IMG/VR virus record: IMGVR_UViG_3300025093_001645 | Coordinates: 1-60,865 of that record | DNA length: 60,865 nucleotides | Direction: 5' to 3' (one strand) | Source of the DNA: a virus | Part shown: piece after piece, positions 1,208 through 22,913 of the stretch | Layout: every line of letters starts with the position of its first letter | How positions within the stretch are numbered: position 1 is the stretch's first letter | Program-made: the position numbers and the translations under genes | Notes under the pieces: model-generated | The model's input: only the letters and a program-made list of their open reading frames with translations | What the model was told of the DNA's origin: nothing | The model's database searches: none

Positions 1208-1236
1208 TTAACATTGCGCATTAAGTTTGCTATATT
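1208..1236 (+). promoter_or_regulatory. sigma70-like promoter of the candidate small RNA
   Basis: TTAACA (1208-1213, 5/6 to consensus) and TATATT (1231-1236) are separated by exactly 17 bases. The predicted start near 1243 falls at the first base of a perfect hairpin. No protein-coding frame follows before the terminator at 1292. Confidence 0.65.
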
Positions 1237-1242
1237 ATATAA

Positions 1243-1316
1243 AGTTTGTTACCAACAAACTCAAAGGTTGACCATAGACCTTGCCCTCCTTGCCCCCTTT
1301 TGAAGGGGGCTTTTTT
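1243..1316 (+). ncRNA. candidate ~74-nt small RNA with CCUCCUU segment
   Basis: Three hairpins follow each other. AGTTTGTT/AACAAACT (1243-1250 with 1254-1261, loop ACC) is perfect. AAGGTT/GACCTT (1264-1269 with 1277-1282) contains one wobble pair. The terminator stem is GCCCCCTT/AAGGGGGC (1292-1299 with 1303-1310). A 17-bp-spaced promoter lies directly upstream and there is no start codon with a usable frame. The bases between hairpins 2 and 3 include CCCTCCTT (1284-1291), which equals the anti-Shine-Dalgarno core of 16S rRNA and should be single-stranded. No known RNA family is recognised. Transcription is inferred from the promoter and terminator only. Confidence 0.55.
1292..1316 (+). terminator. 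strong Rho-independent terminator
   Basis: An 8-bp GC-rich stem (GCCCCCTT/AAGGGGGC) with a 3-base loop is followed by TTTTTT. It ends the candidate small RNA. Confidence 0.9.
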
Positions 1317-1407
1317 ATTTATTTACGTATGCCTCGAAAAAAGTAACAGCAGCGCTTAGGAATAGTAGGATTTCAAACACTAGCCTGCGTACCTTTTTCC
1401 TGTTCAT
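1315..1407 (-). CDS. 30-residue putative membrane peptide
   Basis: An ATG-started minus-strand frame encodes a basic N-terminus (MNRKKVRR) followed by a hydrophobic helix of about 17 residues and a short polar end. The pattern is that of a small single-pass inner-membrane peptide. No good Shine-Dalgarno sequence is visible, which keeps confidence low. It is the only coding candidate in the 1201-1513 gap and resembles in size two better-supported minus-strand peptides at 2318 and 2532. Confidence 0.35.
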   Translation of the reverse strand: MNRKKVRRLVFEILLFLSAAVTFFEAYVNK

Positions 1408-1513
1408 ATTGATAACTAGGAAAAATTTAGGAAAAAAATTTGATCGGGTTGAGCCCCGAAACTAATTATAATGATGCGGCTTTTTGGGTCGGAGAAAAAA
1501 ATCGGAGAGGAAT

Positions 1514-2262: not shown

Positions 2263-2319
2263 AAAATGTCCCAAAAGTAGAATGCTAATATTAGTGTTAC
2301 TATTGGTGACATTTTTTTT
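2263..2319 (+). terminator. probable terminator after the 1514-2223 unit
   Basis: AAAATGTC (2263-2270) pairs with GACATTTT (2308-2315), continued inward by CAA/TTG and AGTA/TACT with small bulges, and is followed by more T residues. Confidence 0.5.
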
Positions 2320-2416
2320 ATAAATAAGGTCCGATATTGTTCATCCAATCAAACTCGTATAGCAATTCTTCGCTAGCAGTTACAACTAATGTAGTTAAAA
2401 ACAATAAGTATTTCAT
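2318..2416 (-). CDS. 32-residue exported or membrane peptide
   Basis: A strong AGGAGGG Shine-Dalgarno sequence sits 4 bases before the ATG. The peptide begins MKYLLFLTTLVVTAS, a typical signal or anchor sequence, followed by an acidic, Trp-containing end. It is too short for ordinary gene finders. With the peptide at 2532 and the promoter at 2698 it forms a small minus-strand unit. Function unknown; small membrane peptides of this kind in phages can act on the host envelope, but nothing here shows it. Confidence 0.6.
   Translation of the reverse strand: MKYLLFLTTLVVTASEELLYEFDWMNNIGPYL
2319..2326 (+). promoter_or_regulatory. isolated TATAAATA late-promoter match
   Basis: Exact match to the T4 late promoter, but no plus-strand gene starts within 600 bases downstream and it overlaps the stop of a minus-strand peptide. 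It may be chance in AT-rich DNA. Confidence 0.2.
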
Positions 2417-2531
2417 TATACCCTCCTATAAGAAGTATAAGAACATCTTGGCAAAAATCAATGTCTTTTTTTGGGCAATAAAAACCTATACCCTTCGAAA
2501 AGAGTCAAGTTTTTTATTTTGATTTTCGAAA

Positions 2532-2627
2532 TTAGTTATAAAATTTCCAATCATTATTTGAATAGACAGTCCAGGCGTAGCCAAGATACCCTCCAAATAC
2601 TGTACCCAAGAAAAAAGACATAAACAT
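2532..2627 (-). CDS. 31-residue glycine-rich membrane peptide
   Basis: The ATG follows an excellent GAGGAGG Shine-Dalgarno sequence. The peptide starts MFMSFFLGTVFGGYLGYAW, one transmembrane helix with a G-x-x-x-G-G-x-x-x-G-like packing face that would favour helix-helix association, then a polar tail. It lies between the promoter at 2698-2726 and the peptide at 2318-2416. Family unknown. Confidence 0.6.
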   Translation of the reverse strand: MFMSFFLGTVFGGYLGYAWTVYSNNDWKFYN

Positions 2628-5947: not shown

Positions 5948-6520
5948 TTATACCAGTTTTTTCTCTTGTTTTTCCATAAAAATGTGGAAATCTTCAGTGT
6001 ATATTATAACAGCATTATTGGATTCGTCAAGCAAAAAATGTTCATCTTTGAATTCTGAGAGTGGAATTTGTATAACTGCGGGCTCTCCACCGTGTTTTTC
6101 AACGATTTTCATCGCATTTTCTTCGGCAAAACCGTAATTTCCCCATTTGCTTGGAGATTTTATACCATTTTTGGCTATTTCCTCTTGAAAAACAGTTGAG
6201 GTTCCATAATAAAGAGATTCTTCAACTAGATTTAATTGAATTGGCTCTTCTACACGTTTCAAGAATGTTTCTAATTCCTCACCTGGCTTTGATTCACGAC
6301 TTGGCCAAAGATCTGAATTCTCTGTACCATCTGGATATGTTGCTGTATATCTGCGTCCATCAGGAGTATCAGTATAATCAATTATAGGCTGTCCTCTACC
6401 CCAACGATGTTGTGAGCTTTGAGCAGAATTAAAACTAGCATCAGAAATTGCTTGTTCAATTTCTTTCTTTGATAGATTTTCCTTTAAATACTGTCGCCAA
6501 TTTTCAAATATAAGTTTCAT
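5948..6520 (-). CDS. tagged protein, possible ADP-ribosyltransferase fold
   Basis: The N-terminus MKLIFENWRQYLKEN is the F-x-N-W-R tag with an L-K-E junction. After a low-complexity linker, residues ~100-175 contain LYYGTS, then a G-I-x-x-P turn, then GNYGFAEENA and a hydrophobic beta strand. This order resembles H/Y-G-T-S ... Y-x-F-A-E arrangements in ADP-ribosyltransferase-like domains. If right, it is a functional analogue of T4 Alt, an internal head ART injected with DNA. The catalytic Glu cannot be assigned confidently. ATGA overlap with the upstream gene fixes the start. Confidence 0.6.
   Translation of the reverse strand: MKLIFENWRQYLKENLSKKEIEQAISDASFNSAQSSQHRWGRGQPIIDYTDTPDGRRYTATYPDGTENSDLWPSRESKPGEELETFLKRVEEPIQLNLVEESLYYGTSTVFQEEIAKNGIKSPSKWGNYGFAEENAMKIVEKHGGEPAVIQIPLSEFKDEHFLLDESNNAVIIYTEDFHIFMEKQEKKLV
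6483..6520 (-). repeat. tag-encoding direct repeat, copy 1
   Basis: The first 38 bases of the ART-like gene. The core CCAATTTTCAAATATAAG is shared with copies at 6929-6966 and (with two changes) 7467-7502; a shorter fragment is at 8918-8935. Nucleotide identity, not only peptide similarity, is conserved. Confidence 0.8.
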
Positions 6521-6966
6521 TCTAATCCCATCCTTGCTTTATAGGCTTCAACATATTTTTTAAATTTTTCGAAGATGGCGCCGCCTATACTTTCATAATC
6601 TTTATAGATTTCTTCAGGCTTATTTTTGCCACTGGCATAATCATAAGCATATGCCATTATTTCAGATGGTACACTATAGTATTTTTCTTTTTTTTCCCAC
6701 GGAATATCTTCCCATTCAATATCATCAGGAAGAGAGTGTTCAATCGAGTTATCAAAAAGCTCTGGCATTTCTTTAGCTTGAAGCGCGTGAATAGCTTCGT
6801 GTGGTAGTGCATCATCAGGAAGTGCCTCTATCCATTCTTCAGGTGGTGCTAGTTCAGAAGCTATTAGATCTCTTGCTTTCTGTAAATCTGTCGGAGGCAT
6901 TATAATCTTTAAAGAATCAGCTTCTTCATTTAAATACTTCCGCCAATTTTCAAATATAAGTTTCAT
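6517..6966 (-). CDS. tagged HExxH zinc metallopeptidase
   Basis: The F-x-N-W-R tag MKLIFENWRKYLNEE (L-N-E junction) opens a 149-residue protein. H56-E-A-I-H60 is the zinc-binding motif, and E102 in SEIMAYAYDY is a fitting third ligand, as in gluzincin-type peptidases with E-x-x-A-Y. Both neighbours overlap as ATGA. No signal peptide apart from the tag is present. Target unknown. The tag suggests packaging in the head and delivery into the host at infection. Confidence 0.75.
   Translation of the reverse strand: MKLIFENWRKYLNEEADSLKIIMPPTDLQKARDLIASELAPPEEWIEALPDDALPHEAIHALQAKEMPELFDNSIEHSLPDDIEWEDIPWEKKEKYYSVPSEIMAYAYDYASGKNKPEEIYKDYESIGGAIFEKFKKYVEAYKARMGLE
6929..6966 (-). repeat. tag-encoding direct repeat, copy 2
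   Basis: 5' end of the HExxH gene. It matches copy 1 almost base for base over 38 positions and stops being similar once the body of the protein begins. Confidence 0.8.
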
Positions 6967-7502
6967 CTTGTAGCCCTCTTGCGATTTCCCTCTTTCTCAA
7001 CATTTATTTTTGGATCAGCTTCTAGCCACTTCCAAATCTTTTGGCCCGCGGGTGATTGTTGGGTGTCGCTGTATACAACGCCATATTTATCTATGAGCCA
7101 CTTATAAAAGTCTGTTGTCCTGAAATTACCACCTGCCTTGCGTACATTTCCTGTTATAATGCCATCTTTATGAGGTTGGGTGGCGATAAAGAAAATTGGG
7201 GTTTCACCATCAAGAAGAAAATAAAAGGTATCTCTTCCGGCTGGATCATTGAATAATACCACTTGGTGTCCGAATTTGGGGTGGGCGCCCGCATCTTTTC
7301 TGTTGATTTTTTCAAAACGTGGCCAGCCCGTTGTAGGGTCTTTTTCGTGCTCTTTTTCATTTGGCGCCACGTATTCTTCTCCACCATCCCAAAAATAATT
7401 AATAGTATTTTGTCGCCCTTCTTGCGTTTTAGTTCCAGGAATAGCAGCAATTGCTTCAACTTCTTCTAAGTACTTCCGCCAATTTTCAAATAGGAGTTTC
7501 AT
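6963..7502 (-). CDS. tagged protein, GNAT-like
   Basis: The tag MKLLFENWRKYLEEVE opens a 179-residue protein. The body has a beta-rich centre (TFYFLLDGETPIFFIA) followed by D-F-Y-K-W-L and a C-terminal motif Y-S-D-T-Q-Q-S-P-A-G-Q-K-I-W-K-W-L. The S-D-x-x-x-S-x-x-G-x-x-x-W-x-x-L pattern recalls the cofactor-binding end of GNAT N-acetyltransferases, but the match is partial. It is transcribed directly after the FtsZ-like gene and overlaps the metallopeptidase gene as ATGA. Confidence 0.6.
   Translation of the reverse strand: MKLLFENWRKYLEEVEAIAAIPGTKTQEGRQNTINYFWDGGEEYVAPNEKEHEKDPTTGWPRFEKINRKDAGAHPKFGHQVVLFNDPAGRDTFYFLLDGETPIFFIATQPHKDGIITGNVRKAGGNFRTTDFYKWLIDKYGVVYSDTQQSPAGQKIWKWLEADPKINVEKEGNRKRATR
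7467..7502 (-). repeat. tag-encoding direct repeat, copy 3
   Basis: 5' end of the GNAT-like gene. It shares TACTTCCGCCAATTTTCAAA with copy 2 and then differs at a few positions. Confidence 0.75.
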
Positions 7503-7513
7503 TATTTTAGTTC

Positions 7514-8560
7514 CTATTGTGTTAAGCCGCCTAGTAACATTATGGCTATTAATCCAGGAGCATTATCAACTACATAAACTCCAGAAAATAAAGTTTCTGT
7601 TCTGCCGCCGACATATGATGTTGCTGCATCTAGATGCTGACTAATATTTGGATTTTCCGCCATCTCTGGAGGCATAACCAACAATAGGGCTCCAATTTTA
7701 GATTTCTCTTTTGTACTTGGGCATGGTGATCTCTTAATACAATTTTGAAGTATCGTAGCACCAAGAGAAGGACTTTCTACATCTTTAATCATTGTAGTAC
7801 CAATAAGCATTCTGCCTTCTGCTTCTAAACATCTTTCCAAATCTTTTGAATCAAAAGATTGAATTGAAGATTTTTCAGAAGCTAGTTTAAATGTTTGTTT
7901 GATTAACTTAGCTATAGCTGCATTTGCTGTTGGTAATAAATTTGTTAATCCAACCTTTCCTCTTAATATTTTAGTTTGTCTTTCATTATCTAATATAATA
8001 TGTGGAAATTCTGCAATATCGTTAGCCAAAATAGTTGCATTCTTAGAAATAGTACCATTAAGAAGTTCCTGTGAACTTGGCCAAGTCATAATATAAAATA
8101 CTTTACCTTCTCCCTGGACTGATCTTAAATAACGATTGAATACATCATCTAGAGCAGTGCAGGAACTACCAGTTCCTCCGCCGCCGCCAGCTAAAACAAA
8201 AATCCAATCAACTTTGCCTAATTTTGTTCTAAGGGCATCTTCAACAACAGCGCTATTATGTTTAAATACGCTCTTTCCAAAATCAACATTTTTAGCTACA
8301 CCATCTGCATCTGGAATAACTACGAGGTGTTTAGGATCAACATCTTTTGGCTGATCTTTGTCGGTAGTATTAATTAAAAGTGTTTTATTAAAACCTAGAT
8401 CTAAAAAAGCTTTGGCTAATTTGCCACCTCCGCCACCGACGCCAATAAATGCACAATTTAAAGCACATTCGACTGTATTTTCTGGAAGTTGATCAGCATC
8501 TGCAACTTCCTCTACTTCTCCATAATGATCTACAAAATCAAAATCATCAAATTCACTCAT
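7514..8560 (-). CDS. FtsZ/tubulin-superfamily GTPase
   Basis: 348 residues. The nucleotide-binding loop IGVGGGGGK (39-47), the tubulin signature GGGGGTGSS (125-133) and the synergy (T7) loop D237-x-x-D240 are present. The segment after D240 aligns position by position with FtsZ up to the conserved MLIG/MMG. The catalytic Asp pair that hydrolyses GTP in the neighbouring subunit is therefore intact and filament formation is likely. The acidic ~35-residue N-terminus is extra, and there is no long C-terminal tail for FtsA/ZipA. Phage tubulins centre DNA or segregate it (PhuZ, TubZ). AAAGGAGC Shine-Dalgarno and a near-consensus promoter lie upstream. Confidence 0.9.
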   Translation of the reverse strand: MSEFDDFDFVDHYGEVEEVADADQLPENTVECALNCAFIGVGGGGGKLAKAFLDLGFNKTLLINTTDKDQPKDVDPKHLVVIPDADGVAKNVDFGKSVFKHNSAVVEDALRTKLGKVDWIFVLAGGGGGTGSSCTALDDVFNRYLRSVQGEGKVFYIMTWPSSQELLNGTISKNATILANDIAEFPHIILDNERQTKILRGKVGLTNLLPTANAAIAKLIKQTFKLASEKSSIQSFDSKDLERCLEAEGRMLIGTTMIKDVESPSLGATILQNCIKRSPCPSTKEKSKIGALLLVMPPEMAENPNISQHLDAATSYVGGRTETLFSGVYVVDNAPGLIAIMLLGGLTQ

Positions 8561-11214: not shown

Positions 11215-11826
11215 TTATAATTCAAAGGCGCGCAACATTTGTCTTGCCTCTATGATCATATTGGTGTGGCGCCTTGTCCAACCTCTATGTTTATGACCTT
11301 CATGATCTGAATCTGCACTTCCGTTCTTTGCTAAAAGCGCTAGATGTACTAGTTCGTGCATTAAAGCACTTTCAGAAATTTTGTGACCATATCCTTGCCA
11401 AACCCAAATCATATGTTTGCCTTCAACTAATCCTATTATATTTCTATTGGCTTCAAATTTTTTACCATTTAAATCATATCCTTTGATACCCACTCTTTTT
11501 TCAGTACCCCAGCGCACCATAACTTTTTCTAACATTCCTCTAACAGCCATATTATCATCTTCAAAGTATTCTAGCCACTGGTGGTAAAAAATGAAAAAAG
11601 ATAATGCTACTTGATGCACAGGGTAAGTTTGACAATTTGGTACAACTTGACTAGCTTGATTAAAATAAGGAATTATAATCATTTGAGGGAAAGGCTTGCT
11701 TGGATCACATAAAGCTTTTCTATGAATTCTTTTGTATTCGTTATTGAGAAAAATTGTAGAGTTTTGGCTAGTACAAGTAATAGAAAATAAAGTAAAAACT
11801 AAAAAAATTATTACTTTCTTTATCAT
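11215..11826 (-). CDS. HExxH metallopeptidase, putative lipoprotein
   Basis: Residues 1-17 form a signal sequence ending at Cys18 (F-S-I-T-C), an approximate lipobox. H157-E-L-V-H161 is a zinc motif in SALMHELVHLALLA, followed by a His-rich stretch with DHEGHKHRGWTRRH that may supply the third ligand. The segment around residues 60-150 has conserved-looking aromatic residues. Location would be the periplasm or outer membrane of the infected cell. It overlaps the MopE/VWA gene as ATGA, so the two are made together. Substrate unknown. Confidence 0.75.
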   Translation of the reverse strand: MIKKVIIFLVFTLFSITCTSQNSTIFLNNEYKRIHRKALCDPSKPFPQMIIIPYFNQASQVVPNCQTYPVHQVALSFFIFYHQWLEYFEDDNMAVRGMLEKVMVRWGTEKRVGIKGYDLNGKKFEANRNIIGLVEGKHMIWVWQGYGHKISESALMHELVHLALLAKNGSADSDHEGHKHRGWTRRHTNMIIEARQMLRAFEL

Positions 11827-13757
11827 TCACTGCTTCCACCTTTACAAATTTCATCAATAATTTCCATTAGATTAGCGTACATTTCGGTAGGATTATTGGT
11901 GAGATAAAACCACTTCCCATTTCCAGTCGCAGCGAGATCCTTCCAATGATTTGAGCCGCCTACTCTAGAGAATGTATATAATCTAAGCTGTGGGGTGCCA
12001 GAAATAGCCGTTTTAACGTCTTCTACAGTCAAGTTAGGCACAAGGTAGCTTTGAGGGTGTTCGTCCGAAAAAACGATGATTATTCGGTCTGCCCCGGGGC
12101 GCCAAGATATGTCAAAATTTTCTTTGGGTGGAGAAGATTCTACTACGCTTGGACCAATTCCAGGAACTTGACCAACCCAATCTAAATCCTCAAGCAAATA
12201 TTTAAGACTAGAAGAGATATTGTGCACAGCAATATAGATAGCATCCAAAAGCATCTCAAATGCTGTAGTGTTTCCGTTCCATCCAATTGTGCTTCCCATA
12301 TTACTAAGAGCAGTTAGAAAATCAGTAAATCCAGTTAGATCCTGGAATAATTCTAATCTTTCACTATTGGTGTCATAGGCGACTGGTCCTCTAATAAATG
12401 CCCAGTTGATAACTTCCTCATCACTGAAACTTTGTGCAAACTGATTTAAAGCAATCATAACAGCATCCATTTCATCGCCCATTGATCCAGACCAGTCAAC
12501 AATAAAAAGAACATCTGTTTCTTTCATTTCCTCGCCCCAGTCTGCTATGCCATCACAATCATCATCTAGACCATTGCAGATCTCTTCTTGGGGTACAACT
12601 TCGCCTTCACAATAATACGGAATAAAGTTTTCTTCATCGTCGTGACTGCCCCATGTGCCTTCAACACAGACCATTTCGCCAGGAACACATATTCCAACCA
12701 TTAAAGTACCTTCTGGTCCCGAATAACAAGGGCTGTATAAATCTTCATCAATCAACTCGTTACAATTATCGTCAAAATTATTGCATTCTTCTTCAGCCAA
12801 TGGCATTCCTATTAGAGGATCACAGATCTCATTTGGATCTGTTGGAGGTATCCAATAACACATTGCAAAACAATCAGACATTGTTAGTTGAGTACAGTCC
12901 GGATCTACACATTCGCAAGTTTTAAATCCTTGGCCGCATAGTAAAGGACTTTCCTGGCAAGGAAATAGTGTACCTACGTCTTGGATTGTACAAACACAAT
13001 CTAGATCTTCATCAATGGCGCCATCACAGTCGTTGTCTAAGCCGTCGCAGATCTCTTCATTTACAGGAGGTGCGTTACAGGATATCCAGTTTCCATCAAA
13101 ACACATTTCATACCCTACTCCGCAAGCAGTACTACAGGGCTGAATTAAATCCTCGTCGGTAGTTCCATCGCAATCATTATCAAAGCCATCACAGACTTCA
13201 GGAGGAATTATGCCACACTCGTTACATTCGTTGCGCTGACCTTCATCAATGATTCCATCACAATCATCATCTTCGTAATTACAAGACTCTTCATTGCAAT
13301 CAGTTACGCAGTCAGTGTATTCTATTTTTCCTTTATTACAAACTTTATCTTGGGTACCAGGATATCCATCTTCTGTTACACATTCTAAAGTTTTAATTAA
13401 GTATTGTGTAGGGTCACATTCCATAAACTCTATACATTCTGTCTCTGAATATACAGTTGGAGGGTCCTCACAGATATTAATACAAATTTCTTTTTGCCAA
13501 ACCGAATCTAGTGGAGGACAAAAATACATATTGCAGTCAATGCATTCAGGATCAACTTCCTCTTCTGGTGTCCAAGGCACTACGTCTGGATATTCATAAT
13601 CATTAACGTCAATAGGGCCAGAAAGGTCCATAATACCTGACGACATTCCGTCAACAGCATCAGAGCAGTATGATAAAAATACTGCCGAAATCAAAATGAG
13701 TAGAAGAGTTTTTATTCTTGTTTTAGAATCAACTTTTTTAAGTTTTTTTAAACTCAT
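11823..13757 (-). CDS. MopE-repeat and von Willebrand A lipoprotein
   Basis: 644 residues. A basic start and hydrophobic segment end at Cys31 (L-S-Y-C; Tyr before Cys is atypical for a lipobox). The cysteine-rich middle holds about five acidic repeats of the type C-D-G-x-D-N-D-C-D-G-x-x-D-E (e.g. EVCDGFDNDCDGTTDEDL), the MopE metal-binding repeat common in Myxococcota and relatives. From about residue 415 a VWA domain follows, with intact MIDAS sequence DWSGS for Mg-dependent adhesion. I infer a surface-displayed adhesion or shielding lipoprotein acquired from a host. A TATAAATA lies 80 bases upstream, so late expression is likely. Confidence 0.85.
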   Translation of the reverse strand: MSLKKLKKVDSKTRIKTLLLILISAVFLSYCSDAVDGMSSGIMDLSGPIDVNDYEYPDVVPWTPEEEVDPECIDCNMYFCPPLDSVWQKEICINICEDPPTVYSETECIEFMECDPTQYLIKTLECVTEDGYPGTQDKVCNKGKIEYTDCVTDCNEESCNYEDDDCDGIIDEGQRNECNECGIIPPEVCDGFDNDCDGTTDEDLIQPCSTACGVGYEMCFDGNWISCNAPPVNEEICDGLDNDCDGAIDEDLDCVCTIQDVGTLFPCQESPLLCGQGFKTCECVDPDCTQLTMSDCFAMCYWIPPTDPNEICDPLIGMPLAEEECNNFDDNCNELIDEDLYSPCYSGPEGTLMVGICVPGEMVCVEGTWGSHDDEENFIPYYCEGEVVPQEEICNGLDDDCDGIADWGEEMKETDVLFIVDWSGSMGDEMDAVMIALNQFAQSFSDEEVINWAFIRGPVAYDTNSERLELFQDLTGFTDFLTALSNMGSTIGWNGNTTAFEMLLDAIYIAVHNISSSLKYLLEDLDWVGQVPGIGPSVVESSPPKENFDISWRPGADRIIIVFSDEHPQSYLVPNLTVEDVKTAISGTPQLRLYTFSRVGGSNHWKDLAATGNGKWFYLTNNPTEMYANLMEIIDEICKGGSSE

Positions 13758-13836
13758 TTCGTGGCCCTCTAAACGTAACTAGTTAAAAACTATGGTTATA
13801 ATATTATATACTTTAATGTTCTCTTCAAAACAAGAC

Positions 13837-22323: not shown

Positions 22324-22683
22324 ATGTGGAAATTTAAAAGAAAAAAATATTCCAAACCCGGACAAGACTATTATTCTATCTCAAGCAAACTAAAGTCTGA
22401 AGCTAAAATTACAACTGACTTTGAAATTATGCTTTCTTCTTTGACCCTTGAAGAGATTATTGCGCTTCGTTTAGAATTAGCAGCAAATGCTGTAAACGGT
22501 AAACTCTATGGTCTAAACCTCTGGAAAGAACTGCCAACAATCGTAAAAGATGCTGTTTTGAAATATGCTCATAGCGCATGCAGAACAAAAAATGAAGCTG
22601 CAGCAATGTTGGGAATCAATAAAAATGAGTTGAGAAAACTTTTAAAACAGTTTGAAACAGAAAATTGGTTTATTAAAGATTAA
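22324..22683 (+). CDS. 119-residue protein with Fis-type helix-turn-helix end
   Basis: Basic N-terminus, then a helical middle. The C-terminus T-K-N-E-A-A-A-M-L-G-I-N-K-N-E-L-R-K-L-L has the spacing of a helix-turn-helix of Fis/NtrC type (A-A-x-x-L-G-I-x-x-x-x-L). I recognise comparable short proteins from T4-like marine phages without assigned function. DNA binding is a reasonable inference. Confidence 0.7.
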   Translation: MWKFKRKKYSKPGQDYYSISSKLKSEAKITTDFEIMLSSLTLEEIIALRLELAANAVNGKLYGLNLWKELPTIVKDAVLKYAHSACRTKNEAAAMLGINKNELRKLLKQFETENWFIKD

Positions 22684-22694
22684 CATTGTATAAT
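22665..22694 (+). promoter_or_regulatory. possible sigma70-like promoter of the small-gene run
   Basis: TTGGTT (22665-22670) and TATAAT (22689-22694) are 18 bases apart, upstream of the small genes starting at 22734. The -35 is weak. Confidence 0.4.
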
Positions 22695-22733
22695 TTGTGT
22701 GTTATATTGGCTTTGTATTAAAGGAGGTCAATT

Positions 22734-22913
22734 ATGACTAATGCAGAACTTAATAAAACCGTTACAGCACAAAGAGAAACTATTGCTCACTTAACAAATA
22801 GAGTAAGCCAGCTTGTTGATGAGTTGGCTATCTTAAGAAGAGAAGTAGGTAATTTTAAGACTCAAGTGGCCAACGATATGAATCGCGTTGTAAAGACATT
22901 GCAGAGCAAGTAA
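22734..22913 (+). CDS. 59-residue coiled-coil protein
   Basis: ATG behind AAAGGAGGT, the strongest ribosome site seen in the window. The product (MTNAELNKTVTAQRETIAHL and on) is a continuous helix with heptad Leu/Val spacing. Too short for many gene callers but well supported by its ribosome site and position at the head of a run of seven small genes. Function unknown. Confidence 0.75.
   Translation: MTNAELNKTVTAQRETIAHLTNRVSQLVDELAILRREVGNFKTQVANDMNRVVKTLQSK

Follow-up and report, generated by a model that had tools for sequence, protein, structure and literature searches.

Does the noncoding DNA that follows a nuclease gene in this phage genome encode a small RNA (sRNA), and what could the C-rich segment exposed in its predicted fold do? 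The window, i.e., the whole 60,865-nucleotide stretch of DNA that was analysed, is a fragment (60.9 kb) of a marine, uncultivated T4-like myovirus, with matches to baseplate wedge, PhoH and late sigma-like proteins. Among its other genes is one for a divergent tubulin/FtsZ-like GTPase (7514-8560, minus strand; a sub-threshold Pfam match), which is kept in related contigs beside structural genes. Several proteins of the window (5948-7502, minus strand, and elsewhere) have in common the N-terminal peptide MKL(I/L)FENWR(K/Q)YL, which resembles a shared capsid-targeting or processing signal, and further small conserved peptides are encoded at 2318-2416 and 2532-2621 (both minus strand). A staphylococcal-nuclease-like gene (850-1200) lies directly 5′ of the locus studied here. 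The first-pass annotation of positions 1208-1316 had described a promoter, three hairpins, an unpaired C-rich segment and a terminator. This observation was real, as all of these elements were confirmed. They are listed below together with their state in the closest relative for this region, IMGVR_UViG_3300030376_008775 (G001), whose nuclease is 88% identical.

1208..1236, plus strand: sRNA promoter, TTAACA-17-TATATT (10/12), extended -10 with TGn before it
1243..1316, plus strand: predicted sRNA of about 74 nt, from the fold, the promoter-terminator pair and the relative at G001:C1:33306-33360
1243..1261, plus strand: hairpin 1, perfect 8 bp; not conserved in G001, where the 5′ part is longer and A-rich
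1264..1282, plus strand: hairpin 2, AAGGUU(N7)GACCUU; one compensatory pair in G001 (U-A to C-G)
1283..1291, plus strand: unpaired seed GCCCUCCUU, also written GCCCTCCTT (GCCCUCCUA in G001, 8/9 bases kept)
1292..1316, plus strand: intrinsic terminator GCCCCCUU-UUG-AAGGGGGC followed by U6; the 8-bp stem (1292-1310) is identical in G001 and the loop differs

The promoter is sigma-70-like, and the exact 17-bp spacing reported for it was correct, as were its coordinates. The -35 hexamer TTAACA occupies positions 1208-1213 and the extended -10, TGC-TATATT, positions 1228-1236, with the predicted start at 1243, which is indeed the first base of the perfect hairpin. The promoter belongs to a class common to one other phage gene. 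The window contains two perfect copies of the pattern TTAACAT-N13-TGNTATANT, one at 1208 and one at 22680, and no others; a reversed control of the pattern produced 0 matches in 37 records. Promoter-like sites as such were no commoner in the window than expected by chance, and the same was true of weaker matches to the class (2-3 mismatches). The other copy is as follows.

22680..22708, plus strand: second exact copy of the sRNA promoter class, preceding a 59-aa gene; kept in G001, G003, G004 and G005

Both copies are kept in G001; the contigs of G003, G004 and G005 do not show the first. A separate noncoding block, TTTGATCGGGTTGA...AACTAATTATAATGA (1436-1475, plus strand), is highly conserved 5′ of the gene at 1514. 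It occurs once in each genome part searched, its spacing is unusual for sigma-70, and it is possibly a phage-specific promoter.

The fold of 1243-1316 has a minimum free energy (MFE) of -25.2 kcal/mol and is more stable than those of shuffled sequences (z -3.1). The three hairpins, including the two further ones that had been noted (1264-1282 and 1292-1310, the latter followed by T6), and the open C-rich segment were present in both the MFE and the centroid structures. The probability of being unpaired was 0.98-1.00 for C1284-U1291 and 0.86 for G1283, and 0.95-0.99 in the relative. The stretch CCUCCUU (0.98-1.00) is accessible, as the open motif complementary to Shine-Dalgarno (SD) sequences is in anti-SD sRNAs. 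Only two strong terminators were found in the window, counting both strands, and that of the sRNA is the strongest and GC-richest. Promoter-terminator pairs occurred at a mean of 0.2 per simulated sequence in ten Markov simulations. CCTCCTT alone was not enriched, with 5 occurrences in the window and six expected by chance. The combination of promoter, fold and terminator exceeds chance; short motifs alone do not. As had been claimed, the unit lacks a reading frame: a hidden open reading frame was discarded, as there is no SD-bearing frame inside the sRNA and the frame at 1246-1359 is broken by a stop in G001. Three other candidates were also rejected. No tRNA was found, the AAGGAGG at 677 lies within an open reading frame, and an AAGGAGG that could serve as ribosome-binding site of a minus-strand gene is followed 9 nt on by an ATG, but the frame has 4 codons and G001 has no start there.

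The counterpart in G001 sits 3′ of the same nuclease gene. It keeps the -35 block (identical), the 17-bp spacing, TGnTATA, hairpin 2, GCCCTCCT and the terminator stem. The promoter spacer, the terminator loop and the entire 5′ part including hairpin 1 have changed. Conservation of the hairpins in relatives, on which the first-pass annotation had staked its proposal, was thus seen for hairpin 2, with its compensatory pair, and for the terminator stem, but not for hairpin 1. The covariation test is powerless with no more than two known members, and shuffles give it no statistical support. Over CCTTGCCCTCCT-N-GCCCCCTTT (= CCTTGCCCTCCTNGCCCCCTTT), 21 of the 22 bases are identical between the window and G001. 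Since fourfold-degenerate sites in five nearby genes are only about 58% identical, the chance of such an identity is about 1e-4. The unit is, in this one relative, conserved beyond neutral expectation.

Further members were sought by several routes. A covariance model (R1) matched G001 at 4.4e-14, which shows specificity only because G001 is in the model. Among 50 related records it found G001 and no third member; none was found in G004, where the sRNA locus may lie past the contig end. Three scans of the collection (motif plus terminator, motif plus hairpin, and core) returned G001 plus chance matches only, the latter located within coding DNA or next to other terminators, and one scan of genome contigs returned four unrelated terminators. 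DNA similarity among 50,697 phages gave nothing above chance, and in G008 the gene order is rearranged at the locus and there is no such unit. Since neither the covariance model nor the collection scans gave a third member, the family is narrow; absence elsewhere is weakly supported because many related contigs end before the locus. With its own promoter, a short noncoding transcript region and an intrinsic terminator, the unit is very probably a stand-alone phage sRNA gene of such a narrow family.

What the open segment could bind depends on how closely it resembles the ribosomal anti-SD, to which it had been equated. The resemblance extends to seven bases: CCCUCCUU shares CCUCCUU with the 16S rRNA, but the eighth base differs (16S has ACCUCCUU). 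The anti-Shine-Dalgarno label fits in so far as this stretch is common to both RNAs, but GAGGG(C) is the preferred partner of the sRNA, and the 16S tail pairs better than the sRNA with a canonical SD (-21.0 vs. -11.5 kcal/mol). With GAGGGC and AGGAGGG sites the order is reversed, and the sRNA pairs more strongly by 5-7 kcal/mol. The seed contains an extra GC, and its preference is therefore shifted to GAGGG(C) sites.

Pairing with gene starts was scored for 61 ortholog pairs of the window and G001, and three starts pair at -12 kcal/mol or lower in both phages, by a scoring that rests on small counts, was selected with the data in view and takes no account of mRNA structure and accessibility. 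The predicted targets are the following.

11823..13769, minus strand: 644-aa MopE/VWA-type gene, start 13757, with GAGGGC before the start
2318..2427, minus strand: 32-aa peptide gene, start 2416, with SD AGGAGGG
22734..22913, plus strand: 59-aa gene, coiled-coil-like, with SD AAAGGAGGUC; kept in G001, G003, G004 and G005

The site at 13757 reads UAGGAGGGC in G001, perfectly complementary to all 9 nt of the G001 seed, the changed base among them; the more distant G004 has the 644-aa gene without GAGGGC. The encoded protein (11823-13757, minus strand) combines MopE-type metal-binding repeats with a VWA-like region and may be a surface protein acquired from a host. In G001, GAGGG is retained at the site before 2416 (AGGAGGG to AGAGGG). 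At 22722, the AAGGAGG site is fully conserved, and its gene, 22734, has the promoter class of the sRNA; it is probably co-expressed with the sRNA and probably a highly expressed early gene. In G001 the seed differs in its last base (U to A) but AAAGGAGG at 22734 is unchanged; this pairing is therefore not co-maintained over its full length. When target pairing was scored for altered seeds, the true seed core was the best of 16 flank variants and the best of 42 permutations. Together with the conserved predicted target pairs this rank is no more than suggestive of pairing, and GAGGG-type phage genes are likely better candidate targets than general SDs.

Then, we hypothesized that host RNA polymerase would read the sRNA, probably early, from the promoter class that also serves one other phage gene, and that GCCCUCC(U), held open between hairpin 2 and the terminator, would pair with ribosome-binding sites carrying GAGGG or AGGAGG and block their translation. 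A few phage genes would be affected, the best candidates being 13757 (minus strand), 2416 (minus strand) and 22734 (plus strand), and host genes with strong SDs might be blocked as well. We give even odds to action in trans through the C-rich seed, and the complete proposal (sRNA gene, shared promoter and SD blocking by the seed) could equally well prove right or wrong. The defined promoter, the seed and the short, conserved list of candidate targets make the sRNA testable, and regulatory RNAs have hardly been explored in lytic marine phages. A more elaborate version seems to us doubtful: the phage would use a GAGGG/GAGGGC dialect of ribosome sites that host ribosomes recognise weakly, and would carry an sRNA tuned to it, transcribed from the promoter class of the 59-aa partner gene, so that chosen phage genes (the MopE/VWA surface protein and the 32-aa peptide) are held back beyond ribosome competition. 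If this were true, the sRNA would block initiation more on GAGGGC than on AAGGAGGU.

The same open segment could have a different origin. GCCCUCCUU may have arisen by slippage as a second copy of the terminator arm GCCCCCUU, able to form a second, overlapping terminator hairpin or to engage in strand exchange, and the short RNA would then be a by-product of an orphan promoter and a terminator, with no pairing role. The segment does nearly repeat the 5′ arm of the terminator, the alternative hairpin that forms in the window when the normal arm is blocked costs only 3 kcal/mol, and the lack of over-representation of CCTCCTT by itself agrees with this origin. In G001, however, the difference is larger, 6.3 kcal/mol, and the open segment is hence better conserved than the alternative fold. 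In both phages the probability that the open segment is unpaired is at least about 0.95, and the seed rank test also speaks against a duplicated arm, an origin that we consider rather unlikely.

Another possibility arises from the gene that faces the sRNA.

1315..1407, minus strand: convergent 30-aa membrane-type peptide, its stop codon within the sRNA U-tract, likewise in G001

In type I systems of the bsrG/SR4 kind the two RNAs form a 3′-overlapping antisense pair. The read-through mRNA of the 30-aa gene (1407-1315) would be complementary to the whole sRNA and could therefore act as such a pair, or the mRNA could serve as a sponge of the sRNA. Either relation is conceivable because the peptide and the arrangement are conserved, with the peptide ending inside the U-tract in both phages, and no terminator-like site was found on the minus strand of 1-1440. 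Type I toxin-antitoxin antisense RNAs have extended complementarity to the mRNA of a toxic peptide; here the convergent peptide is conserved, its reading frame overlaps the sRNA by only a few bases, and it lacks an evident promoter or good SD. In addition, the sRNA is conserved unevenly, with a free 5′ part and a fixed seed, and antisense pairing alone needs no open GCCCUCC. An antisense or sponge function is, on balance, unlikely.

Global host shut-off is very unlikely. It was considered because phage genes nearly avoid AGGAGG, which precedes 0 of the 52 window genes of at least 80 aa (GGAGG precedes 1), and an abundant anti-SD RNA could therefore block strong-SD host mRNAs and spare the phage. 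However, the 16S tail pairs much more strongly with a canonical SD than the sRNA does, the sRNA would have to outnumber the mRNAs, and its shared-promoter partner 22734 itself has AAGGAGG. An attenuator or a hidden open reading frame is unlikely, and we give hardly any credence to a leader of the gene at 1514 or a mere terminator of the nuclease gene, since the attenuator-like order of hairpins and the sub-threshold Rfam matches to leaders stand against the 200 bp from 1316 to 1514, which hold a convergent gene and, conserved in its own right, a TATAAT block, the lack of a conserved leader peptide frame, and scores far below gathering for every Rfam match.

The proposed blocking of ribosome sites by an open seed can be compared with known systems. 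No Rfam 15 family was at or above its gathering cut-off for the unit. As proposed, the sRNA would work like Yfr1, the csRNAs and the alpha-r14 sRNAs, and it is a member of none of them. Yfr1 of cyanobacteria is a 54-69-nt RNA in which two stem-loops, the 3′ one a terminator, surround an open conserved C/U-rich motif (PMC2190773), of which UCCU is required for target pairing (PMC6778093). The phage sRNA is likewise small, with a 3′ terminator stem-loop and an open C/U-rich motif. However, the Yfr1 motif is ACUCCUCACAC in an open region of 16-20 nt, and Yfr1 is bacterial and near-universal in cyanobacteria (PMC2190773, PMC6778093), whereas the phage-borne RNA has GCCCUCCU, three hairpins and an open segment of 9 nt, GCCCUCCUU. 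The streptococcal csRNAs are also small and defined by promoter and terminator, and their conserved CCUCCU was proposed to pair with SDs (PMC4438229). They are chromosomal and CiaR-driven, have the motif in the first loop and about 40 open nt between the stems, and also carry anti-start-codon and [A/C]UCCUAAA[A/C] motifs (PMC4438229); in the phage sRNA the motif lies between hairpins and the promoter is sigma-70-like. The alpha-r14 or cuckoo RNAs, such as NfeR1, share with it an unpaired anti-SD motif kept open by hairpins, but they are alphaproteobacterial and have three hairpins whose unpaired parts contain three identical copies of CCUCCUCCC (PMC10746234), whereas the phage sRNA has a single CCCUCCUU between hairpins and no CCUCCUCCC in hairpin loops. 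Phage-borne sRNAs are small transcripts, some with terminator hairpins, that act on phage or host mRNAs (PMC12197685, PMC8545117). The 100-nt RNA of PhiKZ is presumed to arise by processing of a 3′ UTR (PMC8545117), while the sRNA described here has its own promoter. Within one open-access library, no description of a phage RNA with an open anti-SD motif was found. If the proposal is true, this sRNA would be a phage counterpart of the Yfr1/csRNA-type RNAs and would give a phage control over the timing of its own translation.
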